The translations under genes were made by a program, and so were the position numbers. This document shows, piece by piece, positions 10,545 through 35,790 of a stretch of DNA of 51,418 nucleotides. Every line of letters begins with the position of its first letter. The first letter of the stretch is position 1. This DNA is from Terasakiella brassicae. Lineage in GTDB: Bacteria; Pseudomonadota; Alphaproteobacteria; Rhodospirillales; Terasakiellaceae. Location: the NCBI RefSeq assembly GCF_014641495.1, contig NZ_BMHV01000023.1, forward strand, positions 1-51,418, read 5' to 3'. The notes under the pieces are model-generated. The model made no database searches. It had not been told where the DNA came from and saw only the letters and a list, made by a program, of their open reading frames with translations.

Positions 10545-10589
10545 GGAATTCTTATACGTTACGATTGGAATAATTCCTAGGTTTTTTGA

Positions 10590-11255: not shown

Positions 11256-11256
11256 T

Positions 11257-14108: not shown

Positions 14109-14143
14109 ACGTTAACTGTCCTCCTTTGAAGGGGGTGAGAGCC

Positions 14144-14965
14144 ATGGCAGAGAAAACACCTAATAAGAAAAATAAGGTCTCGAGAAGAGACTTCTTAGGG
14201 GATGCCGCCAAAGGGGTATGTGGCGCCGGACTGTTTGGTCTGGCCCTCGGCTCAGTGGTTGCAGAAGCCGAAGGTAAGCTTCCTGCCGACGCCATCCGGC
14301 CACCGGGTGCGACGGCAGAAGCGGACTTCCTGTCGGCTTGTGTTCGCTGTGGTTTGTGTGTGAGGGACTGCCCTTACGACACGTTGAGTTTGGCCGATAT
14401 GGGCAGTTCTGTGGTCAGTGGCACGCCGCTGTTTGTTGCGCGCACAATTCCGTGTGAAATGTGTGACGACATACCGTGCGTTGTTGCTTGTCCCACAGGG
14501 GCTCTGGACAAATCGCTGACCAATATCGACGATGCAAAAATGGGCATCGCCGTATTGGTCGGCCATGAGACTTGTCTCAACTTTCAGGGGTTGCGCTGTG
14601 ACGTATGTTACCGCGTCTGCCCCTTGATCGAAGAGGCAATTACACTGGAACGTTCCGCCAACGAACGAACCGGGAAACACGCAATTTTCATCCCGACCGT
14701 ACATAGTGATAAATGTACCGGTTGCGGCAAATGCGAACATGCGTGCGTATTGGAAAAGACGGCTATCCGTGTTTTACCCGAACGCATCGCATTGGGCGAA
14801 CTGGGTGCCCATTATCGCTGGGGCTGGGTTGAAAAAGGCAATAAGGGCGAGTCTCTCATTGAGGGACAAGGGATTATCGATCTACCGGATCGAGGCTACA
14901 ATCCCGAACCGTCCGGTTTCCCGGAGAAATCGGCAACCGGCGGCTATAAGGGGTTTAAGCCATGA
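14144..14965 (+). CDS. napG: NapG, periplasmic ferredoxin-type quinol-oxidation subunit
   Basis: This 273-residue iron-sulfur protein has a twin-arginine signal ([12 protein letters not shown]) and four [4Fe-4S] clusters, seen as [32 protein letters not shown] and [11 protein letters not shown]. With NapH it forms an alternative route from menaquinol or ubiquinol to NapC/NapA. The ATG at 14144 follows GGGGGTGA closely. A TTG at 14126 is in frame but sits inside the ribosome-binding site region and is rejected. The stop overlaps the napH start (ATGA). Confidence 0.94.
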
Positions 14966-15882
14966 GTAAAATGCAAAATCCCGGTGCAGCCGCCGTTGAA
15001 CAAAAAGGCTGGTTAGCCGCCCATAAGTGGCTGATCCTGAGACGGTTGTCTCAAATTCTGTTCATTGCCGCTTTCCTTGTCGGTCCGTTGACGGGCTTCT
15101 GGCTGGTGAAGGGAACTTTGGCGTCAAGCATGACTTTGGATGTCTTGCCGCTGACGGATCCGTTCATCTTCTTGCAGTCCCTTGTGACGGGGCATGTCAT
15201 GGAAACCAACGCCATTATTGGTGCTGTGATTGTTGCGGCTGCCTATTTTTTGCTGGGTGGTCGTGTCTTTTGTTCCTGGGTATGTCCTGTCAATATCATT
15301 TCCGATACGGCCAGTTGGTTGCGTCGGAAATTGGGATGGAAGAAAACAGGTGTCCGCTTGGACCGTTCAACGGCGCTATGGACGATGGGGGCTGTGTTTG
15401 TCACATCCGCCCTGACAGGTACCATTGCGTGGGAGTTCGTCAATCCGGTGACGATGTTACATCGTGCCATCGTGTTTGGGGCTTTCGCATCCGTTGGACT
15501 GGTTTCCGGGGCCTTGTTCTTGATCGAACTTGTCGGGGGGGACCGTATTTGGTGTTCTCGCTTATGTCCGGTCGGGGCTTTTTATGGATTGCTGGGGAAA
15601 GTCAGCGTCCTGAAAGTCAGTGCTTCCAAACGCAAGGCTTGTAACGACTGTATGGATTGTTATGCCGTCTGTCCGGAGTCTCATGTCATTTCGCCCGCGC
15701 TTAAAGGGGAAAAGGACAATCGGGGTCCGATTATCCTGTCCGGTGATTGCACAAATTGTGGTCGCTGTCTGGATGTCTGCTCTGAAGACGTTTTTGAATT
15801 TTCGCTTCGAACTAGAAATAAATTGGATGATGTCCGCCCGAATGAGGGGAGTGCCGAGGACGGCACCCAACGGGCGGCATGA
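14962..15882 (+). CDS. napH: NapH, membrane quinol dehydrogenase subunit
   Basis: This 306-residue inner-membrane protein has four to five hydrophobic helices. The cytoplasmic CxxxCP motifs CSWVCPVN and CSRLCPVG are followed by two C-terminal [4Fe-4S] clusters ([11 protein letters not shown] and [11 protein letters not shown]). It anchors NapG and feeds quinol electrons to it. It overlaps napG by 4 nt upstream and adjoins napB downstream. Confidence 0.95.
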
Positions 15883-15902
15883 GACTTGAAGGAGATATGA
15901 CT

Positions 15903-16331
15903 GTGAAACGAGTCCTAATTCCAGTAGTCGCCGTTTTTGCCGTTGCCATTCTACTTATGGCAAATGCAATTGCGGGGAACGTAACGAGCTTACGCGGACA
16001 GGTGGATTTGAAAGAAACCAACTCTGCTGCAACAATTAATCATGTGGTTGAAGACGGGCGGGTTCCGCAAAATTACCGTCAGCAACCGCCGCTGATCCCG
16101 CACAAGATTGAAAAATATCAAATCAATCTGAAGGTCAATCAGTGCATGCGTTGCCATAACTGGCAGTATGCCGCCAAAGAAGGCGCACCGAAAATCAGTG
16201 AAACCCATTATCAGGATCACCGTACCGGTCAGCCGTTGGATGATGTTGTTCCGGGTCGCTGGTTCTGCACACAATGTCACGTACCGCAAGTGGATGCGAA
16301 GCCGCTGGTGGAAAACACTTTCTCAGAATAA
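15903..16331 (+). CDS. napB: NapB, periplasmic dihaem cytochrome c subunit
   Basis: NapB passes electrons from NapC to NapA. Two haem-binding motifs are present, CMRCH and CTQCH, along with the NapB phrase VPQNYRQQPPLIPH containing an axial-ligand histidine. An N-terminal hydrophobic stretch (VLIPVVAVFAVAILLMA) is the export signal. The start is ambiguous. AAGGAG at 15889-15894 is 8 nt from the GTG at 15903 but only 2 nt from the ATG at 15897. An ATG at 15879 overlaps napH. I prefer the GTG on spacing. Confidence 0.93.
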   Translation: MKRVLIPVVAVFAVAILLMANAIAGNVTSLRGQVDLKETNSAATINHVVEDGRVPQNYRQQPPLIPHKIEKYQINLKVNQCMRCHNWQYAAKEGAPKISETHYQDHRTGQPLDDVVPGRWFCTQCHVPQVDAKPLVENTFSE

Positions 16332-16350
16332 AGCCTGAAGGGAACTTATT

Positions 16351-16971
16351 ATGAGTGAACTTGAAGAAAAAGGCGGCTTTTTCAACCGCATATGGGCTTT
16401 GTTGAGAAGGCCAAGCAAGACGACATCGGCGGGCATGCTGCTCTTTGTCGGCTTGATCCTCGGTGTTGCCTTTTGGGGGAGTTTCAACTGGGCCCTTGAG
16501 GTCACGAACACGGAAACGTTCTGTCTGTCTTGTCACGAGATGGAACAAAACGTCTATCGTGAATATAGCGGCACGGTTCACGACACCAATGCGTCCGGTG
16601 TCCGTGCAACCTGCCCGGATTGTCACGTTCCGCGTCCGTGGATCCATAAAATGAAACGCAAAATCCAGGCGTCAAATGAAGTCCTGCATAAAATTCTCGG
16701 AACCGTGGATACACGCGAGAAATTTGAAGCACATCGTTTGACGATGGCCAAGCGTGTCTGGCAAACCATGAAAGAAACCGATAGCCGCGAATGTCGCAAC
16801 TGTCACAACTTCATGGCTATGGATGTCATGGCTCAAAACTCCCGTGCGCGAAACCGTCACCTTGAGGCACAAGAGGCAGGGCAAACCTGTATCGATTGCC
16901 ACAAAGGGATCGCACACGAACTCCCGGCGAATGCTTTTAGCGCAGAAGAAGAGCTGAACCAAGCACACTAA
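16351..16971 (+). CDS. napC: NapC/NirT-type membrane tetrahaem cytochrome c
   Basis: This 206-residue quinol dehydrogenase has one N-terminal membrane anchor (~residues 25-50) and four CxxCH haem sites: CLSCH, CPDCH, CRNCH and CIDCH. It oxidises membrane quinol and reduces NapB. It is the last gene of the napFDAGHBC operon, and a strong terminator follows 77 nt downstream. Length and haem spacing are typical. Confidence 0.95.
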   Translation: MSELEEKGGFFNRIWALLRRPSKTTSAGMLLFVGLILGVAFWGSFNWALEVTNTETFCLSCHEMEQNVYREYSGTVHDTNASGVRATCPDCHVPRPWIHKMKRKIQASNEVLHKILGTVDTREKFEAHRLTMAKRVWQTMKETDSRECRNCHNFMAMDVMAQNSRARNRHLEAQEAGQTCIDCHKGIAHELPANAFSAEEELNQAH

Positions 16972-20200: not shown

Positions 20201-20213
20201 GTTAAAGGGTTAA
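17202..20213 (+). CDS. ydiJ: YdiJ-type FAD/Fe-S D-2-hydroxyacid dehydrogenase (D-2-hydroxyglutarate dehydrogenase family)
   Basis: This 1003-residue fusion is close in length and order to E. coli YdiJ (~1018). An FAD_binding_4 domain (residues ~50-190, PRGGGTGTNGQSLN) is followed by an FAD-oxidase C domain (YGMFGHADVGCLHVRP, WGEHGKGFRGEYSP). Then come cysteine motifs CNGNGACFTWDAFDPMCPS and CLSCKTCATQC for Fe-S clusters, and a C-terminal CCG-type half (CCGMSGMFGHEA). YdiJ oxidises D-2-hydroxyglutarate and related hydroxyacids and passes electrons to the respiratory chain. The start is uncertain between Met codons at 17202, 17211 and 17214, with no strong ribosome-binding site. Its stop overlaps the stop of the convergent gene by 4 nt. 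Confidence 0.9.
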   Translation: MVFMMLPVLTPARGLDDVTLRFLKALEKTSFKGEIHADYPTRLLSATDNSVYQVMPQAVVYPACEGDLNVIAELGAHDDFRGISFAPRGGGTGTNGQSLNKGVVVDISKHMNNIIAFDEEKKLVTVQPGVVLDQLNAFLKEKGYFFPPAVSTSSRATLAGMTGTDASGKGSRIYGKTSDYIEEMDVVLSGGQSWTSRPLNADEMTEVMARHDIVGHIHRQAYESIIENEELIEQTFPKMNRGLTGYNLQHALDNNGTFNLSYLLAGSEGSLCFTQKLTFRVIPLPKNKGLVTVRYKTFNEALEGVQLILKADPAAVEVVDDKIMMLAQDDIIWTQVGDMLGGVAGEPPVMGMNFVEFVGNSQGEVDAQIAKLEKILDEASELEGQATGWRATSDGAQISALWEMRKKSVGLLGALQGKRRAIPFVEDTAVPPENLAPYIREFRSLLDSHGVDYGMFGHADVGCLHVRPTLDLTDLMDEPKLREISDGVADLTKKYGGLLWGEHGKGFRGEYSPKFFGPKLYDELRKIKAAFDPYNLFNPGKIATPYTMADVALTAIDEAVLRGQIDRTLDEKLKEAYPKATLCNGNGACFTWDAFDPMCPSYKATRDRVQSPKGRAGLLREWLRLRTEADKSDTPNALAEGKDFNIDVYEAMKTCLSCKTCATQCPVKVDIPEMKAQFLQAYHERYSRPKRDWLVARLEKLAPITQKFATLTNLGQSLPPVKAFMRHGFGLIDLPKVCRNTVQAGLKQRGAPAFDLDAMRALSTKEKARSVVLLQDTFTTHYDVDVVLAHYDLLAKLGYSVYVAPYRPNGKPLHVKGFLKEFDQLAADNDDYYLHIATCGIDMVGIEAAVTLMFRQEYNQRLANRPDYTVFQFHEWLHAQMIAGHWQVPAHMPEGEFALFAHCTEKTSLPETPKQWNEIFKTFNQSLQIESTGCCGMSGMFGHEADNEEMSKKLYDMSWKDKAAKAGPGQMLATGFSCRCQTKRYGDFKPKHPVEALVQLLKG

Positions 20214-21235
20214 ATATCGTCATCCATATGGCGTTTGGCTTCGCCGTACAGGTTGACATATCCGGCATCCAGTACGGGAACGGCGCGAAATGTGATGATA
20301 TGGTCTTTGCTGCGGATATCGCCGAATACCTCTTTGGACTCGTAAAACGCCTTGCGCACCAACTCAGAAAGGGCCGGGGCGACAAATTCCTTACTGTCAT
20401 CGCCAAACAGCGCCTGTTGGGCGCGTGCGGCACTGTTGGCATAAAGAACTTTACGGTTTACCGAACACCGCAGGAGTGCATAAGGCGTTTCGTGTAAAAA
20501 ACGCGCCTGAAAATCTGATTTTGCCTTTGCTTCGCTAACTTCAACGCGCATGGCTTCAATCTGGCGGGCCAATAAGGAGGTCAGGTCTTTGCCTTTTGTT
20601 AATTCTTGGGGAAGCGGCGTGCTGGCCAGTTTGCCGCTATGTTCTTGCAAATGGTTTTGAATAGCCTGCATCGGGCGCAGGTGCATTTTACCCCACAGCC
20701 ATAAATTCAGGACAGCCAGCAGGCCTGCCATAAGGGGGGCCGCAACCCAGTTTACAAGAGTTCCCCAATGTGGGGCAGGGCTCAGGCGGGCACCGTCCAG
20801 TCTAAGGATAAGCCAGTCATAAGGCAGGTTTTCATCTAAACGCAAGGCGATATCGGCTTTTTCAAACAGATCATCCCATTGTACCAAAACGTTTTGGGAT
20901 GCGCTTTGTGGCGGGAAATCATTTTGCGTTTCACCAACGCTTAAGGGGCTATCACCACCTTGTAACAATTTAACGCCTAAGACACTGTCCACATTCAACA
21001 AATCATTCACGCGGAGCAAAATATCGTCACTTTCCCCGCCAGTACTGAGAACGGTTGAGGCAAGCATCCGCGCCGTTTGTACAATGGTATTTTGTCGCAG
21101 GTCCTGTTCCTGAAGGCGCAGGTAGCTGCCCAGACAGAGTAAAAGAGCATAGGTACAGAGTGCCAGTGCCCATGTGCCTTGGCGTGCACGCTTTGATCGC
21201 CAAGCCTGTTTGATCGTGCCTGCATTTTCTGTCAT
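20210..21235 (-). CDS. Two-TM periplasmic sensor with C-terminal PAS domain and no output domain
   Basis: No named family recognised. This 341-residue membrane protein has TM1 at ~22-38, a periplasmic region of ~120 residues, TM2 at ~164-182, a HAMP-like linker and helix (~185-240), and a PAS-like fold at ~245-335 (ALLRCSVNRKVLYANSAA). It ends right after the PAS domain, with no kinase, GGDEF or methyl-accepting region. I see no downstream remnant of one, because the convergent dehydrogenase gene abuts it. It is divergent from the LuxP-like gene, sharing a 160-bp intergenic region, and could signal through protein contact with the LuxQ-like kinase. That is speculation. Confidence 0.7.
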   Translation of the reverse strand: MTENAGTIKQAWRSKRARQGTWALALCTYALLLCLGSYLRLQEQDLRQNTIVQTARMLASTVLSTGGESDDILLRVNDLLNVDSVLGVKLLQGGDSPLSVGETQNDFPPQSASQNVLVQWDDLFEKADIALRLDENLPYDWLILRLDGARLSPAPHWGTLVNWVAAPLMAGLLAVLNLWLWGKMHLRPMQAIQNHLQEHSGKLASTPLPQELTKGKDLTSLLARQIEAMRVEVSEAKAKSDFQARFLHETPYALLRCSVNRKVLYANSAARAQQALFGDDSKEFVAPALSELVRKAFYESKEVFGDIRSKDHIITFRAVPVLDAGYVNLYGEAKRHMDDDI

Positions 21236-21395: not shown

Positions 21396-22538
21396 ATGAG
21401 GCGTGTTTTATGGTTGGTTGCCATTCTGTTTTTCAGTGGCGACCTGTCTGCACAGACAGAAGGAACCGGTTACTGGACCTATAACGAATATATGTCTTTG
21501 CACCCGGAACAGCGACAAAAGGCAGCAACGTTTTCTGCAATGGTACGGGCGGACGCTGTGCCTGAACAGGGAATAAAAAAACCGGTTAAAGTCGCGGTTG
21601 TTTACCCCGGTAAACAGGTCAGCGATTATTGGTGGCGCAGTGTTTCTTCGATGGAAGCGCGCTTGCGCGAACATAATTTACCTTATGAAATCCACCCCAA
21701 TTTTACCGAACCGGGTGTGGATATCCGTTTACAGGAAAAACAAATTGCGCAAGCCTTGGAAACAGATCCCGATTATCTGATTTTTACACTGGATGCCTTT
21801 CGCCACCGTTCCATCATTGAACGGATTATGGTACGCGGACGTCCCAAGCTGATCTTGCAAAATATCACAACCCCTGTTCGGGCATGGGGGGATCAACAAC
21901 CGTTTCTGTATGTCGGTTTTGATCATGCCTTGGGCAGCAGCTTGTTAAGCAAAAAATTTGTAAAAATATTTCCGCCCAAGACGCAATACGCGATGTTTTA
22001 TGGCACGCAAGGCTATGTGAGTGCGATGCGCGGCGGAACATTTCAGATAGAAAGTGAAAGGCATGCTCAGGCGAAAATCGTTGATTCCTTTTATCTGGAT
22101 TTCAATCGGGAAAAATCGAAACAGGCAGCCCTGAAGACCTTGCAAAAGCATAAAAACCTTCCGTATATTTTTGCCTGCTCGACCGATATTGCCCTTGGCA
22201 TTATTGACGCAGCCAAGGAATTGGGGCGATTGGATCGACTTGTGGTCAACGGCTGGGGCGGTGGTGAAGCCGAATTACAGGCGATCCTGAAAGGAGAACT
22301 TGATTTTACGGTCATGCGTATGAACGATGATAACGGGGTTGCTATGGCAGACGCGATTTCCTTGGATCAAAATGGAAAATCAGGTCTGGTGCCGACAATT
22401 TATTCCGGGGATATGGTTTTGATTGAGAAAGGGGTGGAAGCGCACTATCTGCAAGAACTGAGAAACCGCGCTTTTCGATATTCGGATCATTGGCGTACAA
22501 AAAACGATCAAGTCGTTACCTTCGACGGGCAAAAATAA
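21396..22538 (+). CDS. luxP: LuxP-like periplasmic autoinducer-2-binding protein
   Basis: This 380-residue periplasmic binding protein has a signal peptide (cleavage near SAQ, ~residue 20) and the two-lobed sugar-binding fold. It is a close relative of Vibrio LuxP: YPGKQVSDYW, DYLIFTLDAFRHR, LILQNITTP, FLYVGFDHA, NGWGGG and VMRMNDD are shared. The LuxP residues that I recall as contacting borated AI-2 (Gln77, Ser79, Trp82, Asn159, Arg215, Thr266, Trp289, Arg310) correspond to Q74, S76, W79, N156, R212, T263, W287 and R308, a steady offset of 3 then 2. The ribosome-binding site is GGAG, ahead of the ATG. It is followed after 3 nt by the LuxQ-like kinase. No luxS lies in the window. Another furanose-like ligand cannot be excluded. 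Confidence 0.88.
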   Translation: MRRVLWLVAILFFSGDLSAQTEGTGYWTYNEYMSLHPEQRQKAATFSAMVRADAVPEQGIKKPVKVAVVYPGKQVSDYWWRSVSSMEARLREHNLPYEIHPNFTEPGVDIRLQEKQIAQALETDPDYLIFTLDAFRHRSIIERIMVRGRPKLILQNITTPVRAWGDQQPFLYVGFDHALGSSLLSKKFVKIFPPKTQYAMFYGTQGYVSAMRGGTFQIESERHAQAKIVDSFYLDFNREKSKQAALKTLQKHKNLPYIFACSTDIALGIIDAAKELGRLDRLVVNGWGGGEAELQAILKGELDFTVMRMNDDNGVAMADAISLDQNGKSGLVPTIYSGDMVLIEKGVEAHYLQELRNRAFRYSDHWRTKNDQVVTFDGQK

Positions 22539-22541
22539 AGA

Positions 22542-25500
22542 ATGAATAATAATAAAGGTTTTCGGCTGAGCACATTTATTCTTGCACTCTCCTTTGGCGG
22601 AGTGTTGAGTGTTTCAGCCCTCTTTGGCATTTCAAGTTATATGTCGGCACAGCGTCTGATTGACCATGAGATTCGCCAGTCATTTGATTATCGCCATCGG
22701 ATTGTCCAGTTGAACCTGAATGAGAAACTCTCTCAAATTGCGGCGCGTGTCTCGTTTTTATCAGATTTGCAGCCTCTCATTCAGGCGGTTGGCAATGGTG
22801 GAAAACCGGATGTCGAAAATTTTCTGTTTGATGTGATGCAATCGGATGAAATGCGCGATCTGGATGTTCTGATTGTTACCAATCAACAAGGCGAGATCGT
22901 CGGGGATGCCAGTTCCTTTCTCAGCCCTCTCAGTAAATTCACAGATAAAATCTATCAAAGTACACCGCGTGTTTTTCAAAAATGGTCCTTGGTGGAATTG
23001 GATGCGGCGTCACAGACAATGGCACTGGTTTACAGTGTTCCCTTGATTGAGGGGCAATATGGGCAGGTGATCGGGTCCGCGTTTGTGGCCTTGGCCCTGA
23101 CGGAGAATATCCAGTTCTCAAAACGTTTGATGGCGGCTGCGGATGTTGCCCGACTGTATCTGACAACTGGGAAACGCATTCTGACAAAGGCCGGCAGCGA
23201 TTCCTTAGGTCAACATCTGGATGACGCGCAAGTTCTGGCCCTCGCGCAGGAAGCCAATAAAGATATTATGAAAGTTGGCGATTATGTCGGGGCATCTCAG
23301 GATATTCAGATCGGTGTAAATGGCGGTGTGAAGTTGAACGTTATTACGTTCATGCGACGTGATACGGCAATTGACCTGATGCAGGAATATCGCATGAGCG
23401 GTATTTTGCTGGTCGTCGGGGCGTTGATTACGGCGTTATGCATTGCTTATATGATCCGGCGCTTGATGCGCAATAGCACTTTGCGATTAACGGCCTATGT
23501 TGATCAGGTCAACAAAGGGGATCGGACCGTGCGCTTTCAGGCGGGACCCGTACGGGAATTTAACCGTTTGGGCGATGTGGTTGGCAACATGGTTGCGACC
23601 ATCCATGAAAATGAACGTTATTTGACCAATTTAATCGATTTAGCCCCCTCTCCGATTATCGTGTGGGATGAGCAGGGAAGAATGACCAAATTCAATCGGG
23701 CCGCCGAACGGATGATGGGATTTGTCATAGATGCGGGCCAAACGCCGCATATTCAGGATATTATGGGGGCGATTGTGCAACCTGATGAGTCTGAACGCAA
23801 GATAAGCGTTCTTGAACGTTCTTTGAATGGCGAAGTGATCGACGGTTGGGAAATGGCGCATCGCAATTTCAAAACTGCCCAAATTAATTATATCACCTGG
23901 AGCATTTCACCGGTTGCCTTTCATCGGGATGGATCTGTTGCGACCGTATTGGCGCAAGGTCTGGATATTACCCAACGCAAACATGCGGAAAAAGAATTGC
24001 ACCGCATAAATGAGGAGCTGGAACGCCGCGTTGCCAATCGCACACGGGCCTTGGAAGATGAAATTGTCGAACGTCGTCAGATCGAAGCAGAGTTACGCAA
24101 CAGCGAAGAACGTTTCCGCGATATTGCCGAAGCTTCGTCCGATTGGTTCTGGGAAATGGGTCCGGATTTACGGTTCAGCTATATGTCGGATAAAGCGATG
24201 ATGGTTTCGGGCTTTCTGGAAGACGAAATCATGGGCAAGACGCGTGAAGAATTGATCGGTTTGACGCCGCAAGACTGCGAGCAACCAAAATGGCGCGCGC
24301 ATCTGGGCACCTTGGCGCGGCGTGAACCCTTCCGGGCATTTGAATATACGTTAAAGAACCGTCACGGGGAGAAACGCGTTTTCCGGATCAGCGGCAAACC
24401 GGTTTTCAATTCGTTGACGGGTGATTTTCTGGGGTATCGCGGGTCCGGGCGTGATGTGACGGAAGAATATTTGCGTGCACAGGAATTGCAAACCGCCAAG
24501 GAAGAAGCGGAAAATGCAAGTCAGGCAAAAACGGAATTTCTCTCTTCCATGAGCCATGAACTCAGAACACCGTTGAATGGTATTCTGGGGTTTGCGCAGC
24601 TTCTTTTGATGCCCAAAGGCAGCCAGCTACAGGACAGTCAGAAAGAGTTTATCAATCAGATTTTGAAAGCAGGCAATCACTTGCTTAATCTGATTAATGA
24701 AATTCTGGATTTAGCAAAGATCGAAGCCCGCAAAGTCGAAATTTCACTTGAGCCGGTTCATCCATATAATGTGATGGAAGATGTCATCGACCTGTTGGAG
24801 GGTCTGGCACATGATCGTGGTATTCAATTGATAAATGAGATTACCGAAGACAATACCACGTTGATTTATGCGGATTTCACCCGTTTAAAACAGGTGTTGG
24901 TCAATTTGGGTGGAAATGCGATCAAGTATAATAAAGATCAGGGCATTGTTCGTTTTACATGCGCATATGATGCTGGTCTGGATATGGTGCAATTTAATGT
25001 TATCGACACCGGGCCGGGGATTGACCTGAAGAAAAAGGAAGAACTGTTTGTTCCTTTCAATCGCTTAAATGCAGAATTTAGCGAGATTGAGGGAACCGGG
25101 ATCGGTTTGGCGATTACGGATAAACTTGTCGGTCTGATGGGGGGCGAGCTGGGCGTGGACAGTACCCCGGGTGAAGGCAGCTGTTTTTGGTTTCGTCTGC
25201 CTGTTTATAAGCAGAAATTAATTGACGGGCGCAAGGGGTTGACGGCTTTTCACGGGATTGAAACCATCAATCCCGTTTTAAAACGTACGTTGAGTATTTT
25301 ATATGTCGAAGACAATCCCAGCAACAGCACCCTCATGCAGGATGCATTGGCGCAATCCCCGAATATTGAATTGATTATCAAACGCACGGCAGAAGAGGGC
25401 TTGGCTTATATTGAAACACATGATGTGGATTTGTTGTTTTTAGATATGAACCTGCCGAGGATGAGCGGCTGGGATATGATGGAAATCTTACGCCAGAAAC

Positions 25501-25658
25501 AACAAATTGGTGATTTCCCGATTATTGCGGTGACGGCGCAGGCGATGCGCGCCGATATTGCCCGTGCGCAGACCGTTGGGTTTACGGATTATCTATCCAA
25601 GCCGATTAATTTGAAGGATGTCTTCGGTCTTATTCGCAAGCATACACAGGTAAACTGA
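22542..25658 (+). CDS. luxQ: LuxQ-like hybrid sensor histidine kinase
   Basis: This 1038-residue inner-membrane hybrid kinase has TM1 ~11-33, a ~250-residue periplasmic sensor (34-285) and TM2 ~286-306. A HAMP domain follows at ~307-355 and PAS1 at ~362-478 (LAPSPIIVWDEQGRMTKFN, close in wording to the LuxQ cytoplasmic PAS). Then come a coiled coil, PAS2 at ~522-645, HisKA with H672 (SHELRTPLNG), HATPase with N792, DTGPGI and GTGIGLAI, and a receiver with D968 and K1020. In Vibrio, LuxP bound to LuxQ toggles kinase and phosphatase activity. The coupling here is inferred from the gene pair. PAS2 and the coiled coil are additional to LuxQ. No LuxU/LuxO partner is in the window. The end overlaps hupT by 29 nt. 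Confidence 0.86.
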   Translation: MNNNKGFRLSTFILALSFGGVLSVSALFGISSYMSAQRLIDHEIRQSFDYRHRIVQLNLNEKLSQIAARVSFLSDLQPLIQAVGNGGKPDVENFLFDVMQSDEMRDLDVLIVTNQQGEIVGDASSFLSPLSKFTDKIYQSTPRVFQKWSLVELDAASQTMALVYSVPLIEGQYGQVIGSAFVALALTENIQFSKRLMAAADVARLYLTTGKRILTKAGSDSLGQHLDDAQVLALAQEANKDIMKVGDYVGASQDIQIGVNGGVKLNVITFMRRDTAIDLMQEYRMSGILLVVGALITALCIAYMIRRLMRNSTLRLTAYVDQVNKGDRTVRFQAGPVREFNRLGDVVGNMVATIHENERYLTNLIDLAPSPIIVWDEQGRMTKFNRAAERMMGFVIDAGQTPHIQDIMGAIVQPDESERKISVLERSLNGEVIDGWEMAHRNFKTAQINYITWSISPVAFHRDGSVATVLAQGLDITQRKHAEKELHRINEELERRVANRTRALEDEIVERRQIEAELRNSEERFRDIAEASSDWFWEMGPDLRFSYMSDKAMMVSGFLEDEIMGKTREELIGLTPQDCEQPKWRAHLGTLARREPFRAFEYTLKNRHGEKRVFRISGKPVFNSLTGDFLGYRGSGRDVTEEYLRAQELQTAKEEAENASQAKTEFLSSMSHELRTPLNGILGFAQLLLMPKGSQLQDSQKEFINQILKAGNHLLNLINEILDLAKIEARKVEISLEPVHPYNVMEDVIDLLEGLAHDRGIQLINEITEDNTTLIYADFTRLKQVLVNLGGNAIKYNKDQGIVRFTCAYDAGLDMVQFNVIDTGPGIDLKKKEELFVPFNRLNAEFSEIEGTGIGLAITDKLVGLMGGELGVDSTPGEGSCFWFRLPVYKQKLIDGRKGLTAFHGIETINPVLKRTLSILYVEDNPSNSTLMQDALAQSPNIELIIKRTAEEGLAYIETHDVDLLFLDMNLPRMSGWDMMEILRQKQQIGDFPIIAVTAQAMRADIARAQTVGFTDYLSKPINLKDVFGLIRKHTQVN

Positions 25659-26964
25659 CTTTAAATTCCGCCCCGCCGGTTGCGTGGTTGTGGACAGAAA
25701 TATGCCCCTTATGGTCCTGCACAATTTCATATGAAATCCAGAGACCCAATCCCGTCCCCTGACCAACGGGTTTGGTGGTGAAAAACGGGTCAAAGATGCG
25801 GTGAAGATCGTCATCTGAAACACCGTTGCCGCAATCACGTACGTAAATATTTACGTTTGTGTTATGTTTTTCAGCACGGACAATAATCGGGGTGTCTGGT
25901 TGTGCGCTGGAGGCATCAAGGGCATTTTCAACTAAGTTCAGAATGACCTGATGCAGTCTGTTTGCTGATCCTTCGACATATAAATCATTACTGAGGTCAA
26001 GCTCGATCGGATGGTTGCTTGCACGCCCCTTGCTGGCAAAAAGAACAGCCGTTTTAATGACATCACAGATATCGACGCAGTCCTTCGTTTTGCCCTCGCG
26101 AAACGACAGGCGGCGCAGATTATTGACAATTTCACTGACCCGTTCGGCCCCTTCGCGTGTCCCCGCCAACAAATTGGGAAGATCATCCAGAAGGCGTTTG
26201 ATTTTTAAGTCTTCATCCAGTTTTTGACGCACAGGAACGGGTAGTTCTTCGCGTAATGTTTCAATATAGGTCCGCATTTTCTGGCTGTAACGTTCCATGC
26301 TGTGTACATTGCCGTACAGAAAACTGATCGGATTGTTCAATTCATGGGCGACACCGGCAACCAGACGACCAATAGAGGCCATTTTTTCAGATTGCAAAAG
26401 ATGATGTTGTGCGGTTTTCAGTTCAACATGGGCTTTATTTAAATCGTCATAGGCTTGGCGCAATTCCCCGATGGGGCGCCCGACAATGACCAGCCCGTCA
26501 ACTTGCCCTCTGGCGGTTTTATGCAAACTGCAATTCACCGATACATATTCGGAAATATCCGGGGTTTTATGTTGAAGTTTGGTTTCATAATCCTGCAGGT
26601 TTTTAGTTTTGGTTGGCGGGATCAGTTTGCGAAAACGTTCTTCAAACTGTTGGCCCAGAAGAACGGAAATCGGTCGTCCGAACAATTCGGCTTCTTCAAA
26701 GCCTGTGCGTTCCAGCAAGGGGCCATTGACTTTGACGATCCGCCCGACCCGGTCACAGACAATGACGACATCGGACATGGCCTCCAAAATACTGTCGATG
26801 AAGTCATGGGCTTCTTCGAGTTCTGCATTTTTGTTTTCCAAATCGACTTCGCGTTCCAGCAGGTCAGAATAGACTTCGTCCATTTTCTGAATGACTTCGA
26901 CCCAGGCATGTTCCTGCCCATCGTTCAGTTCCAGTGGATTATGCGGCGGCTGGTTTTGTCCCAT
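25630..26964 (-). CDS. hupT: HupT/HoxJ-like histidine kinase of the hydrogen-sensing system
   Basis: This 444-residue soluble kinase has an N-terminal coiled coil, a PAS domain (~55-165), HisKA with the active His in GVAHELNNPISFLYGNVH, and an ATPase domain with NLVENALDA, DCGNGV and GTGLGLWIS. The HELNNPISF sequence and the PAS-HisKA layout match HupT/HoxJ, the kinase that receives the H2 signal from the regulatory hydrogenase HupUV/HoxBC. It is the last gene of the hydrogenase operon, 24 nt after hoxX, and hupUV are in the same operon. The cognate HupR/HoxA regulator is absent from the window. Confidence 0.85.
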   Translation of the reverse strand: MGQNQPPHNPLELNDGQEHAWVEVIQKMDEVYSDLLEREVDLENKNAELEEAHDFIDSILEAMSDVVIVCDRVGRIVKVNGPLLERTGFEEAELFGRPISVLLGQQFEERFRKLIPPTKTKNLQDYETKLQHKTPDISEYVSVNCSLHKTARGQVDGLVIVGRPIGELRQAYDDLNKAHVELKTAQHHLLQSEKMASIGRLVAGVAHELNNPISFLYGNVHSMERYSQKMRTYIETLREELPVPVRQKLDEDLKIKRLLDDLPNLLAGTREGAERVSEIVNNLRRLSFREGKTKDCVDICDVIKTAVLFASKGRASNHPIELDLSNDLYVEGSANRLHQVILNLVENALDASSAQPDTPIIVRAEKHNTNVNIYVRDCGNGVSDDDLHRIFDPFFTTKPVGQGTGLGLWISYEIVQDHKGHISVHNHATGGAEFKVSLPVYACE

Positions 26965-26988: not shown

Positions 26989-28629
26989 CTACATCCTATT
27001 CTTGACCCGTTGGCGGTGTTTGGCAAGATAAAGTGGGGTGTGGGATTTGGGTTCGCGCAAAACAAATTTATATCGCGCCACATGATAACTGGGATCAAAG
27101 CCGAAAAAATTCAGCTTCATATGTTCCAGTTCTTCGCGGCGATACTCATTCAGGGGCTTTTTCGCTTCGTCTTTTTCCCGCACAACAGGCTTGTCGGCAA
27201 GAATGGCGTGATGGTCCAGTTCGTGTACTTTTTTGCGCAAAATCTCTCTGAACTGGGCAACCGTTTCGCCAAAACAACTGGTGAGAAGCCCCATCTCCAC
27301 GCCGTTAATAGCAGAGATTGGAAGACGGTGCTCCATAACAAGGGACTCATTGCCAGTACCGACCCGTTTGGGTAACAGATAGGTCCAATATTCAGATCCG
27401 AACAGATTGCCCATATTTTTATAATGCGGGTTTAAGACAACACCGTTGCGGGCATAAATTTTATCGCAAGTCAGCGCAAAGAACACACCGCCGGCACCTG
27501 CATTGCCACTGAGGGCAGCAACGGTGACTTTATCCGTGGTGCGGATGATGGCTTCGCATAAATCATCCATCGCGTTGATATTATGCCAGCTTTCTTCGGC
27601 AGGACGCGGTGCGGCTTCAATCGCATTCAGGTGAATCCCGTTGGAAAAGAAATCTTCCCCGCCCATCAAGACGATGGTGTGAATGTCTTTGTCCGTACGT
27701 GCGTTTTCATACGCGTGCAACAGGCGTTGGCACTGGTCTGTGTTCATGGCCCCGTTATGAAAAGGAAAATGCAGGTAACCGATTTCGCCTTCTTTTTCGA
27801 AGGTGATATCGCGTTCGCCCTCCCCATAAGGCAGGCCCAGAATTTCGGTCGCAGGCAGTTTGAAGGTGTCTTTGCCTTTTTTGCGTAAATGTCCGATCCA
27901 GATAGCCCCATCGGTTGTGGCCCGGCAAATGGCCCCGTTTCGGGTTGCCAGAATGTCACCGGGCGTTCCCTTTAGGCTTGGTTCAAGACACGCGTTATGC
28001 AGATAAACTTCGCTATCATTAATGATATCTAAAACGCCGGGATTACCATCTCCGCATTGAATTTTACGCAAGACGGTTGCGCTGTCATCAGTGCCCCAAT
28101 CAATGTGTCGATCGGTTTGTTTCATCAGACCGTTCCAGTTTCCATCGCCTTGTAACGGTTCGGGGATGAAATTCCGATCTTGAAATTTGGCCAAGGCTTC
28201 CAGTACACATTCCACCGCCCCGTCTGAAACTTCGTTGCGATAAATACTGCTTTTCGGGGCGGTGCGCATGGCAAAACGGCGGCTTGCCCAAATGGGGCCG
28301 GCATCCATGTCGGCAACGGCTTGCAACAAAGTAACACCCCATTGTTTTTCCCCCCGTAAAATGGCCCAGTCCAACGAGGATGGCCCCCGGTCCCCTTTCG
28401 GGCCGGGATGCACGATTAAACAGGTTAACTTGGACCAAACCGATTCAGGAATAGCGCGTTTTAAAAAAGGCGCGATCAGGATATCGGGTTGAAAAAGATC
28501 AACGGCTTCTTCGGTAACATGATCGTTGATGTCAAATTCAACGCTGACCTCATGGCCGAGGCGTTCAATTTCCACATATAAACGCTGGGTCAAGCTGTTG
28601 AAGCTGTGGGTAAGCAGCAGGATTTTCAT
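26989..28629 (-). CDS. hoxX: HoxX/HypX hydrogenase maturation protein
   Basis: This 546-residue fusion has an N-terminal formyl-tetrahydrofolate-binding half (residues ~1-230, VHPGPKGDRGPSSLDWAIL) and a C-terminal enoyl-CoA hydratase-like half (~255-480, SGNAGAGGVFFALTCD). HypX makes carbon monoxide for the active site of [NiFe] hydrogenases from a formyl group. It is found mainly in bacteria that mature hydrogenases in air, so its presence suggests aerobic or microaerobic maturation here. The start directly follows the hypE stop codon. Confidence 0.93.
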   Translation of the reverse strand: MKILLLTHSFNSLTQRLYVEIERLGHEVSVEFDINDHVTEEAVDLFQPDILIAPFLKRAIPESVWSKLTCLIVHPGPKGDRGPSSLDWAILRGEKQWGVTLLQAVADMDAGPIWASRRFAMRTAPKSSIYRNEVSDGAVECVLEALAKFQDRNFIPEPLQGDGNWNGLMKQTDRHIDWGTDDSATVLRKIQCGDGNPGVLDIINDSEVYLHNACLEPSLKGTPGDILATRNGAICRATTDGAIWIGHLRKKGKDTFKLPATEILGLPYGEGERDITFEKEGEIGYLHFPFHNGAMNTDQCQRLLHAYENARTDKDIHTIVLMGGEDFFSNGIHLNAIEAAPRPAEESWHNINAMDDLCEAIIRTTDKVTVAALSGNAGAGGVFFALTCDKIYARNGVVLNPHYKNMGNLFGSEYWTYLLPKRVGTGNESLVMEHRLPISAINGVEMGLLTSCFGETVAQFREILRKKVHELDHHAILADKPVVREKDEAKKPLNEYRREELEHMKLNFFGFDPSYHVARYKFVLREPKSHTPLYLAKHRQRVKNRM

Positions 28630-29676
28630 TTAACAAATCCTCGGTAATTGTTCACCGGCAATCCAATCGACAACGCGGGTGCCACCAAATCCGGTTTTAA
28701 GCTGGACAAAACTGTTGGCATCTTCAATGACGCTTCCGATGATGGCGGCCTGTTTTCCCAGTGGATGAGCCTGCATGGCGTGCAATAAGGTTTCAGCCTG
28801 ATCTTCAGGGCAGATGGCAAGAAGCTTGCCTTCATTGGCGACATACAGGGGATCAAGGCCGAGGATTTCGCAAGCCCCGCGCACTTGATCACGAATGGGG
28901 ATATCGGGTTCGTTTAACATCATGCCGACCCCGCTTTGACGGGCAATTTCGTTTAAAGTTGCGGCCAGTCCGCCCCGTGTCGGGTCGCGCATGACATGGA
29001 TGTCGGGAACCGCCTTGACCATATCGCCAATCAGACCGTTCAGGCTGGCACAATCAGATTGCACGGATGCTTCAAACCCCAATCCTTCGCGCAAGGACAT
29101 GATGGCAACGCCATGATCACCGACATATCCGTTTATCAGGATTTTATCGCCCGGTCTGGCGCGTTCACCAGAAATATGGATGTCATCTGTGATAACGCCA
29201 ATGCCTGTTGTGTTGATATAGACCCCGTCGCCGTGACCGCGTTCCACAACCTTGGTATCGCCGGTGACGATATAGACCCCGGCCTCGTGGGCGGCGTGGG
29301 CCATGCTATCGACAATGGTTTTTAAATCTTTTAAGGGAAAGCCTTCTTCCAGAATAAATCCGGCAGTGAGGTAAAGCGGTTGACCACCGGACAAAGCCAC
29401 ATCGTTGACGGTGCCGTGGACCGCCAGATTACCGATATTGCCACCGGGGAAAAACAGCGGGGAAATAACGAAACTGTCTGTGCTCATAACCACCTTGCCA
29501 CGCGGCAGTTCAAAGGCAGCCTGATCATTGCCTTGGGCAAGGATATCATTGGCAAATGCGTCCCCGAACAATTGTTCGATCAGTTGTGACATGGCCCGAC
29601 CGCCGCCGCCGTGGCTCATTTCAACGACACCGTTTTTTAAATCAAGACTACGGGTATAGGCTGTACGTGTGGACAT
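28630..29676 (-). CDS. hypE: HypE, carbamoyl dehydratase for hydrogenase cyanide ligands
   Basis: This 348-residue protein of the PurM/AIR-synthase-like fold starts with MSHGGGGRAMSQLI and ends in the obligatory PRIC. The C-terminal cysteine accepts the carbamoyl group from HypF and dehydrates it to thiocyanate. Internal DPTRGGLAATLNEIA is typical. The gene is 27 nt after hypD and abuts hoxX. Confidence 0.96.
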   Translation of the reverse strand: MSTRTAYTRSLDLKNGVVEMSHGGGGRAMSQLIEQLFGDAFANDILAQGNDQAAFELPRGKVVMSTDSFVISPLFFPGGNIGNLAVHGTVNDVALSGGQPLYLTAGFILEEGFPLKDLKTIVDSMAHAAHEAGVYIVTGDTKVVERGHGDGVYINTTGIGVITDDIHISGERARPGDKILINGYVGDHGVAIMSLREGLGFEASVQSDCASLNGLIGDMVKAVPDIHVMRDPTRGGLAATLNEIARQSGVGMMLNEPDIPIRDQVRGACEILGLDPLYVANEGKLLAICPEDQAETLLHAMQAHPLGKQAAIIGSVIEDANSFVQLKTGFGGTRVVDWIAGEQLPRIC

Positions 29677-29703
29677 TGATTTGTTCTCTTTTTATGTAAG
29701 ACG

Positions 29704-30831
29704 TTAAACGGCTTCGCGGAAACGACCGTAGGAATAATAAGCCGCGCACGCCCCTTCGGCGGAAACCATGCAAGACCCCATCGGGTTTTCCGGTGTGCAA
29801 TGGGTACCAAACAGTTTGCAATCGGTCGGTTTTTTCATACCGCGCAGGATAGCAGGGCATTCACAGGCTTTGTTTTCGCGCGCAGGCGGCGTTTCCACCG
29901 GGATTTGAACTTCAGCGTCAAAGGCGGCATATTCTTCTTTAATGCGCAGGCCGGAATAGGGGACCTCGCCTAATCCACGCCATTCAAAGACACGGCGCAG
30001 TTCGAAAATTTCCGCAACCAGTTTCTTGGCTTTGGTATTGCCCATGTGGGTGACGGCGCGCAGATATTGGTTTTCGACTTCGGCGCGGCCTTCGTTTAAT
30101 TGGCGCACCAGCATCAGGATGGACTGCATCACGTCCAGTGGTTCAAACCCGGAAATAACGACGGGGCGCTGGAATTCTTCTACAAAATATTCATAAGGTT
30201 GCGAGCCGATAACCACACTGACATGGGCCGGACCAAGAAACCCATCCAGCGGCACACTGCCCAAGGCACGCACATCCGGGCTTTCCAGAATGTTTTGAAT
30301 GGCCGATGGGGTCAGAACGTGGTTGGACAGAATAAAGAAATTTTTAAGCCCCATCGTCTCGGCCTGTTTAATCGCCATTGCGGTTGGTGGTGTGGTGGTT
30401 TCAAACCCGATGGCAAAGAAAACGATCTTTTTATCGGGGTTGTTCTGCGCCAGTTCCAAGGCATCCAATGTGGAATAGACCATACGCACATCGCAACCTT
30501 CGGCCTTGGCTTTCATTAGACTGGTGAATTTGGACCCCGGGACACGCAACATATCACCATAGGAACATAAAATAACATCCGAACGGCGCGCATAAGCAAT
30601 CGCCTGATCAATGCGTGATATGGGCAAAACGCAGACCGGACAACCCGGCCCGTGGATCATTTTGACGTTACCGGGCAAAAGGTCCTGTACACCGTAACGA
30701 AAAATGGCGTGGGTATGCCCGCCACAAAATTCCATCAGGCGGTAATCACGTGCCGGATCTACTTCGCGCGCAAGGGTCGCGGCCAGTTTTTGCGCGGTGT
30801 CCCCGTTGCGATATTCATCCACATGTTTCAT
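29704..30831 (-). CDS. hypD: HypD, Fe(CN)2CO cofactor assembly protein
   Basis: This 375-residue Fe-S scaffold protein carries the iron moiety with HypC. Diagnostic motifs are EFCGGHTH with C36, GPGCPVC with C64 and C67, and C-terminal cysteines for a [4Fe-4S] cluster (EFELR region, then CECPAILRG and CKLFGTHC). It overlaps hypC by 4 nt (ATGA), so the two partners are translationally coupled. Confidence 0.96.
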   Translation of the reverse strand: MKHVDEYRNGDTAQKLAATLAREVDPARDYRLMEFCGGHTHAIFRYGVQDLLPGNVKMIHGPGCPVCVLPISRIDQAIAYARRSDVILCSYGDMLRVPGSKFTSLMKAKAEGCDVRMVYSTLDALELAQNNPDKKIVFFAIGFETTTPPTAMAIKQAETMGLKNFFILSNHVLTPSAIQNILESPDVRALGSVPLDGFLGPAHVSVVIGSQPYEYFVEEFQRPVVISGFEPLDVMQSILMLVRQLNEGRAEVENQYLRAVTHMGNTKAKKLVAEIFELRRVFEWRGLGEVPYSGLRIKEEYAAFDAEVQIPVETPPARENKACECPAILRGMKKPTDCKLFGTHCTPENPMGSCMVSAEGACAAYYSYGRFREAV

Positions 30832-31061
30832 GGGGCGACACTTTCGTTTTTGGTCATTTCTTCAAACAAGGCGATGGTCTTCAGGGCTTCGTCCTCGTCA
30901 ATTTTGGACAGGGCATAACCGACATGAACGATGACGTAATCCCCGGGGGTGACATCTTCCACTAAACCAAGCGAGATGGTTTTCTTTACCCCACCCAGTT
31001 CAATGATGGCCATATCGTCGTTCAAGACGTCAACGACTTTGGATGGCATGGCAAGACACAT
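30828..31061 (-). CDS. hypC: HypC, hydrogenase assembly chaperone
   Basis: This 77-residue chaperone binds HypD and the immature large subunit through its N-terminal cysteine. The ATG at 31061 gives the required MCLAMPSKV with Cys2. GGGAG about 10 nt upstream, within the last codons of hypF, is its ribosome-binding site. Longer readings would bury Cys2 and are rejected. PGDYVIVHVGYALSKID is the usual HypC C-terminal block. Confidence 0.95.
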   Translation of the reverse strand: MCLAMPSKVVDVLNDDMAIIELGGVKKTISLGLVEDVTPGDYVIVHVGYALSKIDEDEALKTIALFEEMTKNESVAP

Positions 31062-31065
31062 TAGA

Positions 31066-33270
31066 TTAGCTCCCGTCCCGTAGTAGTTTTTGTTGTCCCA
31101 GCCAGACTTGGCCCAGTGATAGGCCCGCATCGCTTAAGGGGACATGTTGATTAAGATAAACCTCAAGACCGGCTTGTTGCAATTTACGCTTTAAGCCTTG
31201 ACTGAGAATTTCATTCAGGAAACATCCCCCCGATAAGGCAACACGGGAAATATTATGTTTTGTGCAGGCCTGTTCCACCCAGTCGGCAAGGGCGAAAACC
31301 AAGGTGCCATGAAACAGGTTGGCCCCGCTTTGTGCGGTGCGCTCACACAATGTATTCAGCAGGGAAAGCAGGTTTAACACCCCGTTTTCTTCCAGATGCC
31401 AGCCTTGTGGGTCAACCTCGATCCGGCTGACAAGGCTTTCCAGCATCATCGGCGCATGACCTTCATATTGTGCGATTTCACAAACACCTAATAGGCCGCA
31501 AGCCGCATCAAACAATCGGCCCATTGAAGATGTTTGTGGGGAATTTAGGCCTTTATCCAGCATTAATTTTAAGGTTTGTGTGTCGTGGCCTGCAAAACGG
31601 CTGTCGATTTCATCACGGCGACCCAAGGCATGCAGGGCGCTGGCCCCCATACGCCACGGTTCAACAGCCGCTTTGTCGCCACCCGGTTGAGCCAAGGGGC
31701 GTAGATGCCCGATACGGGTACAGTTTAATCCATCCACTTTGAATAATTCACCACCCCAGCTTTTGCCATTGTCTCCAAGGCCGAATCCGTCAAGCGCAAG
31801 ACCGATCACTGGCCCGTCAATTTGATGTTCTGCCAGAACCGAGGCAATATGGGCATGATGATGTTGGACGGCAAAGGTCTCAATTCCCAGACTATGAGCA
31901 AAGCGTGTGCTGGCAAAATCGGGATGCAGATCATGTACGGCGAGGACGGGATCGACGTGCAGAATTTTGCGCAAATGATCAAACGTTTCTTCCTGAAAGC
32001 ACAAGGTTGCCACGTTGTCCAAGTCCCCGATATGTTGGGACAGATAAGCATGGTTTGCCCGTGTCAGACAGATTGTGTTTTTCAGAAAAGCCCCCAATCC
32101 CAATATGCTGGAGGTATCCTGTGTTAAGGCGATGGGGCGCGGTGTAAATCCACGGGCCGAACGCAGGACGGTCGGACCGCTGAGGTCATGGCGCACCACG
32201 CTGTCATCCACACGGATGAGGATATCCCGGTTATGGGTGACAATAGCATCTGCGATGTTTGATAAACGGTGTTCGGCCTCGTCATTTGCAATGACCAAAG
32301 GTTCCCCACCGGGGTTTGCGCTGGTCATAACAAGGGGCCGTCCCCGCAAGGCATCCATAATCAGGTAATGCAAGGGGGTGTAAGGCAGCATAACCCCGAT
32401 GCGGTTTAAGTTTGGGGCAATCGTGTCTGGTAGATTACTCTTTTTTTTGCGCAGTAAAACGATGGGGCGTTCAGGGCTTTCCAGCAGGGCTTGTTCATCT
32501 TTATCCAGCTTGGCAAAACTATTTATTCCCTTGCAATCGGCAACCATGACAGCAAAGGGTTTGGCGGCGCGGTTTTTGCGTTTGCGCAACTTTTCAATGG
32601 CTGTTTCGTTATGGGCATCACAAACCAGATGGAACCCACCTAATCCCTTAATGGCGAGGATTTGACCTTGGCGGATACGGTTGGCAATTTCACTGATATC
32701 CATAGAAAGACGAGGACCGCAGTTGGGACAGCAGGTTGGCTGGGCATGAAAACGCCGATTGGTTGGATCACGGTATTCAGCTTCGCAGGCCGGGCACATT
32801 TCAAATGCAGCCATAGACGTTTGCGCCCGATCATAAGGCAGGCTGTGGGTGATGGTATAGCGTGGTCCGCAATGGGTGCAGTTTAAAAAAGGATAGCCAT
32901 AACGTCGATCGTTTGGGTCGCGCATTTCCGACAGACAATCCGGGCAAATGGCGGCATCAGGAATGATATCTGTTTGAACGTCCCCACATTCACTTTCGCG
33001 GATCAGAAAAACAGCTTCATTTTCCTTTTTCTCAATTTCTTTTTCTTCGATGCTTTGAATGCGTGACAGGGCAGGCGCCTGTTTATGTAACGCATCGAGG
33101 AAAGCGTTTGTGGTGCTGCCTTGAACCTCGATCAACACACCTTCTTGGTCATTTAAGACCCAACCGGTCAGCCCCAAATCCCAGGCGAGTTGATAGACAA
33201 AGGGGCGAAAGCCGACCCCTTGTACCTGACCGCGCACGCGATATTGAATTCGTTTAAGATTGGGCTGCAT
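31066..33270 (-). CDS. hypF: HypF, carbamoyltransferase
   Basis: This 734-residue enzyme makes the carbamoyl group for the cyanide ligands from carbamoyl phosphate. Domains in order are acylphosphatase ([13 protein letters not shown]), two zinc-finger pairs (CPDC...CTHC and CPAC...CPNC), a YrdC-like domain ([14 protein letters not shown]), and a Kae1-like domain ([23 protein letters not shown]). I use the ATG at 33270, just before the acylphosphatase domain. It overlaps hypB by 17 nt, and a start at 33312 would overlap by 59 nt and add 14 unrelated residues. Confidence 0.95.
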
Positions 33271-34111: not shown

Positions 34112-34453
34112 TTATTCGACCTCCAGTTCTTTGACCCGCATTTCATCGCCACCTGATATATGGAGCTTGTAGCTGCCACATTTGGGACATTGGGCAATGC
34201 GCGAGGCAATTTCCAATTCTTCGGCGCAGTCCACACAAATGGCTTTGCCCGGTGTTTCAACGATTTCAAGTTTGGCCCCATCGGCGATTGTGCCTTTCAT
34301 AACGGCATCAAAGCAAAAGGCCATAGCTTCGGGCTCCACATGGGAAAGCTGTCCGATTTCCAACCAGACTGTTTTGACTTTGGCAAACCCGTTTGTCTTT
34401 GCATAATCTTCCAGAATATTCAGCACACCCTGTGTCAATGACATTTCATGCAT
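34112..34453 (-). CDS. hypA: HypA, nickel metallochaperone
   Basis: This 113-residue protein has the nickel-binding N-terminus MHEMSLTQGV (His2) and a zinc site of two CxxC pairs (C73/C76 and C89/C92). The ATG at 34453 is fixed by the need for His at position 2. GAGGAAC lies ~12 nt upstream inside the end of hupK. It delivers nickel with HypB, encoded directly after it. Confidence 0.95.
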   Translation of the reverse strand: MHEMSLTQGVLNILEDYAKTNGFAKVKTVWLEIGQLSHVEPEAMAFCFDAVMKGTIADGAKLEIVETPGKAICVDCAEELEIASRIAQCPKCGSYKLHISGGDEMRVKELEVE

Positions 34454-34454
34454 T

Positions 34455-35633: not shown

Positions 35634-35790
35634 TTGCTTCTTTACCCCTTGTCATGCCTTCAGTCATAGACAGCAAAAGGCGTGCCATCTTTATTTCATA
35701 CTTAAGTCTAGGCTTTGCAAGGTTTTGATCGGGGTGTTGAAGATGTATGTGGAAGGAAGGAGTCCGGTATATGGAAACCATTCTTCCACT

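Follow-up and report, generated by a model that had tools for sequence, protein, structure and literature searches.

A stretch of 51,418 nucleotides from Terasakiella brassicae (assembly GCF_014641495.1, contig NZ_BMHV01000023.1, positions 1 to 51,418), referred to here as the window, encodes a LuxP-type periplasmic binding protein directly followed by a LuxQ-like hybrid histidine kinase. Judging from sequence comparison and structure models, this pair is probably a receptor for autoinducer-2 (AI-2) in a bacterium that does not produce the signal itself, which would make it a case of AI-2 eavesdropping. This reading is based on homology, the residues of the binding pocket, the predicted fold of both partners, their linkage, the motifs of the kinase and a genome in which no luxS was found. 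The two open reading frames lie on the same strand with 3 bases between them, as an earlier note written from the bare sequence had stated. Numbers beginning with L and G below are our own handles for loci and genomes. The features in question are:

21396..22538, forward strand: luxP-type gene, a 380-amino-acid open reading frame for a periplasmic binding protein.
22542..25658, forward strand: luxQ-like hybrid histidine kinase gene, an open reading frame of 1038 amino acids identified with Pfam.
22650..23192, forward strand: LuxQ-periplasm domain PF09308 within that gene, covering model positions 2-183 of 239 with 60.8 bits in the genome search.

The window LuxP is 48% identical to V. harveyi LuxP, and a phmmer search of the PDB matched the chains of that protein (1zhh, 4yp9, 1jx6, 2hj9) across residues 24/25-365 with 354-356 bits (E about 1e-105 to 7e-105), the best chain other than LuxP reaching 41 bits only. 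The N-terminus is hydrophobic and resembles, by eye, a Sec signal peptide, and at an E-value of 0.01 Pfam recognized Peripla_BP_4 alone. An AlphaFold2 model built with 50 sequences had a mean predicted local distance difference test score (pLDDT) of 91.0. The earlier note had proposed an overlay on the LuxP–AI-2 complex, and it is this structure, 1jx6, that the model matches best in the PDB (template modelling (TM) scores 0.83/0.92, root-mean-square deviation (rmsd) 2.1, 48% identity); the eight top matches are all LuxP, and other sugar-type binding proteins come only after a gap of about 22 orders of magnitude in E-value. In the tree, a branch with support 100/99 splits the LuxP-like rows from E. 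coli TorT, LsrB and RbsB, whose own branches run at the length limit, with the tree saying little beyond “far away”; with outgroups on such long branches, the rooting of the LuxP tree is uncertain. Homology to LuxP along the full length, as claimed in the earlier note, is thus borne out by search, tree and fold, and the clustering with TorT or sugar-binding proteins that the note had set against its own proposal did not appear. A TorT or a sugar-transport protein is ruled out by 355 against 41 bits and by the separation in the tree.

The binding pocket was compared residue by residue. In 1JX6, the seven residues given as hydrogen-bonding AI-2 are S79, R310, R215, T266, N159, W82 and Q77 (PMC9687752), and all seven are identical in the window LuxP when it is aligned with V. 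campbellii LuxP (L097). In this alignment the window residues Q74, S76, W79, N156, R212, T263, W287 and R308 correspond to Vibrio Q77, S79, W82, N159, R215, T266, W289 and R310; the coincidence of these eight with LuxP had been noticed earlier and holds, seven of them being the listed contacts, while the “steady offset” described with them does not, as it drops from 3 in the first six to 2 at W287 and R308. Vibrio W289, aligned with window W287, is presumably a further AI-2 contact, although it is absent from the seven listed above.

Conservation of these contacts was assessed across 84 non-Vibrio homologues, whose columns agree with Vibrio LuxP at a mean of 0.476. At each of the seven contact columns the Vibrio residue is present in 82-84 of the 84, and none of 100000 random draws of seven columns was equally conserved. 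The peptide VMRMNDDN, which includes R308 and none of the other six contacts, was the search pattern that led to most LuxP loci (78 of 79 rows checked); because R308 lay within it, a second count was made without this residue, and two of 100000 random six-column sets were equally conserved. Trees and residue counts omit L094 and L096, together with L090 and L091 (the same genes as L002 and L108), and the 84-row count also omits the distant L095, L101 and L102, the four Vibrio rows and L050. In genomes searched without the peptide, all ten homologues at 42% identity or above keep the seven contacts, and all four at 25-35% identity have lost at least one, so that conservation of the pocket is a trait of this branch and not of all relatives.

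By Pfam and hydropathy, the partner kinase contains two membrane segments (about residues 9-32 and 283-309), a LuxQ-periplasm domain, two PAS domains, HisKA, HATPase_c and a receiver, with the phosphorelay residues His672 and Asp968 present. Its N-terminus matches the Pfam LuxQ-periplasm model with 57 bits against a cut-off of 25.7, over model positions 2-183 of 239. A model of residues 1-340 (pLDDT 88.5) found as its six top PDB matches the LuxQ periplasmic domains of V. cholerae and V. harveyi (E 1e-13 to 1e-10; TM 0.42-0.48 by query, which includes the long membrane helices, and 0.66-0.72 by target), with a modelled chemoreceptor pair next at 3e-9. The kinase-receiver half is 29-33% identical to Vibrio LuxQ. 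The hybrid kinase of LuxQ layout announced in the earlier note is therefore present in its domain order, and not as an identical layout: it has two PAS stretches and 1038 amino acids, compared with 855-860 in the four Vibrio loci. This protein is LuxQ-like and not a LuxQ equivalog.

A search for luxS, likewise proposed in the earlier note, found none with PF02664 in the window genome (99.7% complete), the same search being positive in five of 14 control genomes, E. coli among them. SahH was found, and as luxS was not, the cell probably has no LuxS-dependent AI-2 synthesis of its own and senses the AI-2 of its neighbours. Alphaproteobacteria have been described as using SahH in place of LuxS (PMC524169). 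Among 48 LuxP-bearing genomes (48 of 79 such records, grouped by record title and taken without completeness figures), luxS is present in 19: 0/20 alphaproteobacteria, 12/12 gammaproteobacteria, 5/5 Campylobacterota, 2/6 Desulfobacterota and 0/5 others. No luxS was found either in a further 20 alphaproteobacterial genomes, of which 18 have a completeness of 90% or more; 15 of the 20 carry a LuxP at 42% identity or above, four a distant relative and one (G050) none, and the two alphaproteobacterial sets share at least G052. With luxS missing from LuxP-bearing alphaproteobacteria in this way, the receptor has been kept where the synthase was not found.

From these parts, a mechanism can be outlined. 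The periplasmic LuxP would bind a furanosyl borate of the AI-2 type in the pocket that it shares with Vibrio LuxP and would dock on the periplasmic domain of the adjacent kinase. Ligand binding would then toggle the kinase between kinase and phosphatase states, with the direction of the switch copied by analogy from Vibrio, and phosphate would pass from His672 to Asp968, on to a putative histidine phosphotransfer (HPt) protein and from there to a regulator. In this way the cell would probably listen to the AI-2 of its neighbours.

Several observations weigh against an AI-2 receptor of this kind, and they concern mainly the kinase and its pairing with LuxP. The periplasmic part of the kinase is only about 20% identical to that of Vibrio LuxQ, its fold match is loose (rmsd 6.3-7.1) with other double-Cache domains following at 1e-7, and the whole protein scores 378 bits with the NCBIfam LuxQ_Vibrio equivalog, short of the cut-off of 1200. 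Neither LuxU nor LuxO was identified in the genome, which was searched by family only; this family-level search returned six HPt matches, two of them in frames of stand-alone size (L084, L086), and eight matches to sigma54 activators, with no HPt and activator genes adjacent to each other. Pairing is unstable within the genus as well. In both G050 and G052 a like kinase (43-44% identical to that of the window over its whole length) stands in the same surroundings with no LuxP beside it; G050 (98% complete) had no LuxP match anywhere in its genome, and the LuxP of G052 lies elsewhere in the genome than the kinase. Conversely, G051 (90% complete) and G053 carry LuxP, and no kinase of the window type was found in either genome.

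The wider picture in the genus is that five of six genomes, that of the window included, carry LuxP, and that the linked luxP–kinase pair is found in the window and in the congener G049 (L106). The LuxP loci of G051, G052 and G053 lie elsewhere and have no window-type kinase adjoining. In G053 (L107), the orphan luxP is divergent from what appear, by eye, to be [NiFe] hydrogenase subunit genes. On contig 1 of the window's own genome (L144, 4398-7433), a second membrane protein bears a weak resemblance to LuxQ: it combines PAS and GGDEF with an EAL motif and scores 19 bits with LuxQ-periplasm, under the cut-off; as a guess, this protein might take LuxP in trans.

The identity of the ligand is the point at which the AI-2 reading meets its strongest alternative, namely that the pocket has been kept for a similar compound, borated or not, such as an L-ketopentose, an alpha-dicarbonyl sugar or 4-hydroxy-5-methylfuran-3(2H)-one (MHF), and that the pair is a sensor of nutrients or host metabolites. 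V. harveyi LuxP is reported to respond to L-xylosone and L-xylulose, with micromolar half-maximal effective concentrations, and to yeast MHF (PMC12921845), so that the pocket is no proof of AI-2, a further point on the negative side. This alternative also agrees with the finding of luxS in none of the LuxP-bearing alphaproteobacterial genomes examined, and with the distant relatives with changed contacts that adjoin sugar-type ABC transporter genes (L101, L102). Against it, the seven contacts are the same in luxS-bearing gammaproteobacteria and in luxS-less alphaproteobacteria, with single exceptions such as L024, as one shared ligand predicts; we regard a similar ligand as unlikely, if far from negligible. 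One of the distant relatives, L101 on plasmid pRA01 of Roseicitreum antarcticum, is 33% identical and lies amid ABC transporter genes, which places a binding protein of LuxP type within an import cluster that resembles Lsr. Its neighbours are a sugar-binding regulator, an ABM-domain protein, which we take to be LsrG-like, and RbsD/FucU, with an lsrK-annotated gene nearby on the other strand.

The surroundings of the pair raise a second alternative. On one side of the pair lies a cluster of nap type (10653-16971), on the other a cluster for a hydrogenase (26989-38246), and the immediate neighbours of the pair are:

20210..21235, reverse strand: 341-amino-acid protein with no family match, divergent from luxP.
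25630..26964, reverse strand: PAS-containing histidine kinase (Pfam), convergent with the luxQ-like gene.

A pair placed between such clusters could regulate the nearby nap or [NiFe] hydrogenase genes as a TorT/TorS-like sensor of anaerobic respiration, and the position of luxP in G053 points the same way. The window LuxP is, however, far from TorT in its pocket columns and in the tree, and the case for a functional link to nap or hydrogenase, considered for the loci of this genus, is weak because G051 and G052 have luxP in other places; we consider a sensor of this type very improbable. The kinase gene at 25630-26964 shares 29 bases with the end of the luxQ-like gene and is probably part of the hydrogenase cluster. 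For the protein at 20210-21235, Pfam and NCBIfam scans at E 0.01 gave no match; three congeners (L106, L141, L142) have a protein that looks similar by eye in the same terminal position of the locus, with LuxP present or absent, and the window protein may be part of the kinase system. No transporter gene adjoins luxP among the families of the neighbouring open reading frames. On the reverse strand, the 26989-38246 cluster contains hypE and hypF, both assigned with family models, hypD, recognized by eye, genes for [NiFe] hydrogenase subunits and a fusion of formyltransferase and enoyl-CoA hydratase that we assume to be HoxX-like. Further along, at 40650-48633, a 963-amino-acid protein with RTX repeats and PD40 and FecR matches adjoins a type I secretion set of ABC, HlyD and an outer membrane efflux protein with a SPOR domain.

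The origin of the window LuxP was addressed with trees. In the careful tree, the window LuxP groups with four congeners (support 100/99), this genus is nested in a clade of alphaproteobacteria plus Magnetococcales (98/95), and the four Vibrio rows form a separate clade (100/100) outside it. Forcing the genus and Vibrio together costs 25.5 log units and is rejected (approximately unbiased (AU) test, p 0.02), and a constraint making the alphaproteobacteria without Magnetococcales a clade is not rejected (p 0.17). In a quick tree of 92 rows, in which 29 of 89 inner branches are weak, Vibrio likewise falls elsewhere, and the metagenome-assembled genome (MAG) L079, titled Oceanospirillaceae, falls within the alphaproteobacterial clade. 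A recent transfer from Vibrio is thus disfavoured by both trees, and although linkage and pocket are as in Vibrio, the grouping with congeners, the rejected constraint and the presence of LuxP in most of the genus make it the least credible of the alternatives. Between lateral transfer and an undescribed branch, the two origins offered by the earlier note, the trees speak against recent transfer from Vibrio and in favour of an alphaproteobacterial branch.

A scan of one genome per species gave 86 confirmed LuxP loci, the best 80 of which were taken, and the locus titles name Alpha- and Gammaproteobacteria, genera of Desulfobacterota and Campylobacterota type, a Magnetococcales, a Denitrovibrio and a Bacteriovorax MAG. 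In an even sample of alphaproteobacterial genomes, LuxP was found in 10 of 385 at E 1e-30, the window's own included and two at 28% identity, and in an even sample of the phylum in 13 of 398 at E 1e-60, again with the window's own.

In order to see what accompanies LuxP across these genomes, the proteins linked to it were scanned. LuxQ-periplasm was recognized at E 0.01 or better, a bar looser than the Pfam cut-off, in 65 of 67 LuxP-linked partners (the window, 62 other non-Vibrio and 4 Vibrio, the first 400 residues of each); in a Pfam scan of ten partners the domain was above the cut-off in nine, with L079 below it. Output domains were typed in a separate count of 67 usable loci, that is, 88 loci with a downstream open reading frame minus 21 in which it was too short, open-ended or non-adjacent; four further loci have no such downstream frame. 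These 67 comprise 33 histidine kinases, six kinases with a receiver, 20 proteins with GGDEF and EAL, one with GGDEF, one with SpoIIE and six with none recognized. Four of the six kinases with a receiver are those of Vibrio, the others being those of the window and the congener L106, and a looser rule also counts a receiver in L009 and L012. GGDEF and EAL follow LuxP in L010, L013, L014, L017, L018, L020, L023, L025, L026, L031, L032, L035, L037, L038, L040, L064, L066, L068, L069 and L076, where the protein lies 605 bases from LuxP in the last; 18 of these 20 proteins are in both counts. Pfam confirmed GGDEF and EAL in L026 and SpoIIE in L004, and in the latter (9236-11473, Desulfococcaceae) LuxP is followed by a protein of LuxQ-periplasm, PAS and SpoIIE phosphatase.

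The domain content of the GGDEF and EAL partners suggests a direct input of AI-2 to cyclic diguanylate (c-di-GMP), and our literature search, which took in PMC12268683, PMC11796354, PMC13220807 and PMC9540692, found no description of LuxP with c-di-GMP or SpoIIE outputs. Varied outputs are not wholly new, because Rezzonico and Duffy noted that LuxP of Marinomonas adjoins a PAS regulator that resembles LuxQ and also carries AAA ATPase and DNA-binding domains (PMC2561040). We would give an even chance to the broader proposal that LuxP and the LuxQ periplasmic domain are an old, portable AI-2 module of proteobacteria, mostly marine ones, mounted on kinases, hybrid kinases, GGDEF-EAL and SpoIIE proteins, and that its alphaproteobacterial branch consists of dedicated eavesdroppers.

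The standing of AI-2 as a true signal between species is a matter of long debate, and a bacterial branch that lacks luxS and keeps its LuxP pocket unchanged would provide a clear natural example of a receiver without a sender. This could be tested directly in the genus of the window, where there are genomes that carry the linked pair, only LuxP or only the kinase. Provided that the GGDEF-EAL partners act in line with their domains, AI-2 would be coupled directly to c-di-GMP in Stappia, Labrenzia/Roseibium and several gammaproteobacteria. What is most interesting here is family-wide: no luxS in the LuxP-bearing alphaproteobacteria examined, and output domains exchanged behind one sensing module.

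LuxP outside Vibrionales is already known, and the window pair adds to a known kind. The statement in the earlier note that LuxP is restricted to Vibrionales, which is still made for Vibrio in other papers (PMC9540692, PMC3386761), is out of date, with homologues elsewhere in print since 2008 and more in 2024 and 2025. Rezzonico and Duffy described LuxP homologues in Neptuniibacter, Marinomonas, Desulfuromonas and Desulfovibrio (Oceanospirillales and deltaproteobacteria), called them luxS-negative, and thought the sensing of others' AI-2 conceivable (PMC2561040). In a survey of 2024, the LuxP references came from alpha- and gammaproteobacteria; it mentions a group of AI-2 listeners and, with data not shown, two alphaproteobacterial LuxP candidates (PMC11069264). 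A 2025 survey lists 267 LuxP proteins, mainly from Proteobacteria, of which the sensory domains of the three tested, from Proteobacteria and Deferribacterota, bound AI-2 (PMC12268683). A literature search on Terasakiella with quorum sensing or autoinducer found nothing.

Compared with the homologues of 2008, the window pair is alike in having LuxP in a bacterium without luxS, and three of those four are described as adjoining a PAS-containing regulator (PMC2561040), but they are gamma- and deltaproteobacterial and the window is alphaproteobacterial. Whereas the gammaproteobacteria of that paper were called luxS-negative, all 12 gammaproteobacterial carriers in our 48-genome sample have luxS, a sample that stands apart from L079, L066 (Neptuniibacter) and L052 (Marinomonas). 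TorT-TorS likewise combines a periplasmic binding protein with a hybrid kinase, but TorT shares two of ten pocket columns with the window LuxP, in an alignment that is unsure for such distant rows, and lies far away in the tree. LsrB, which serves AI-2 import, differs at all ten columns, with the same uncertainty of alignment, and the window gene has no transporter beside it; in its general fold, LsrB belongs with LuxP, and it too binds AI-2 in the periplasm. The closest counterpart is the LuxP-LuxQ system of Vibrio (1jx6, 1zhh, 2hj9). The window differs from it in that no luxS was found and no LuxU or LuxO identified by family search, in the longer kinase with two PAS domains and about 20% periplasmic identity, and in the unstable pairing within the genus; it shares with it the full-length LuxP, the seven hydrogen-bonding contacts, the predicted fold, and the adjacent kinase with a LuxQ-type periplasmic domain and the order HisKA-HATPase-receiver.

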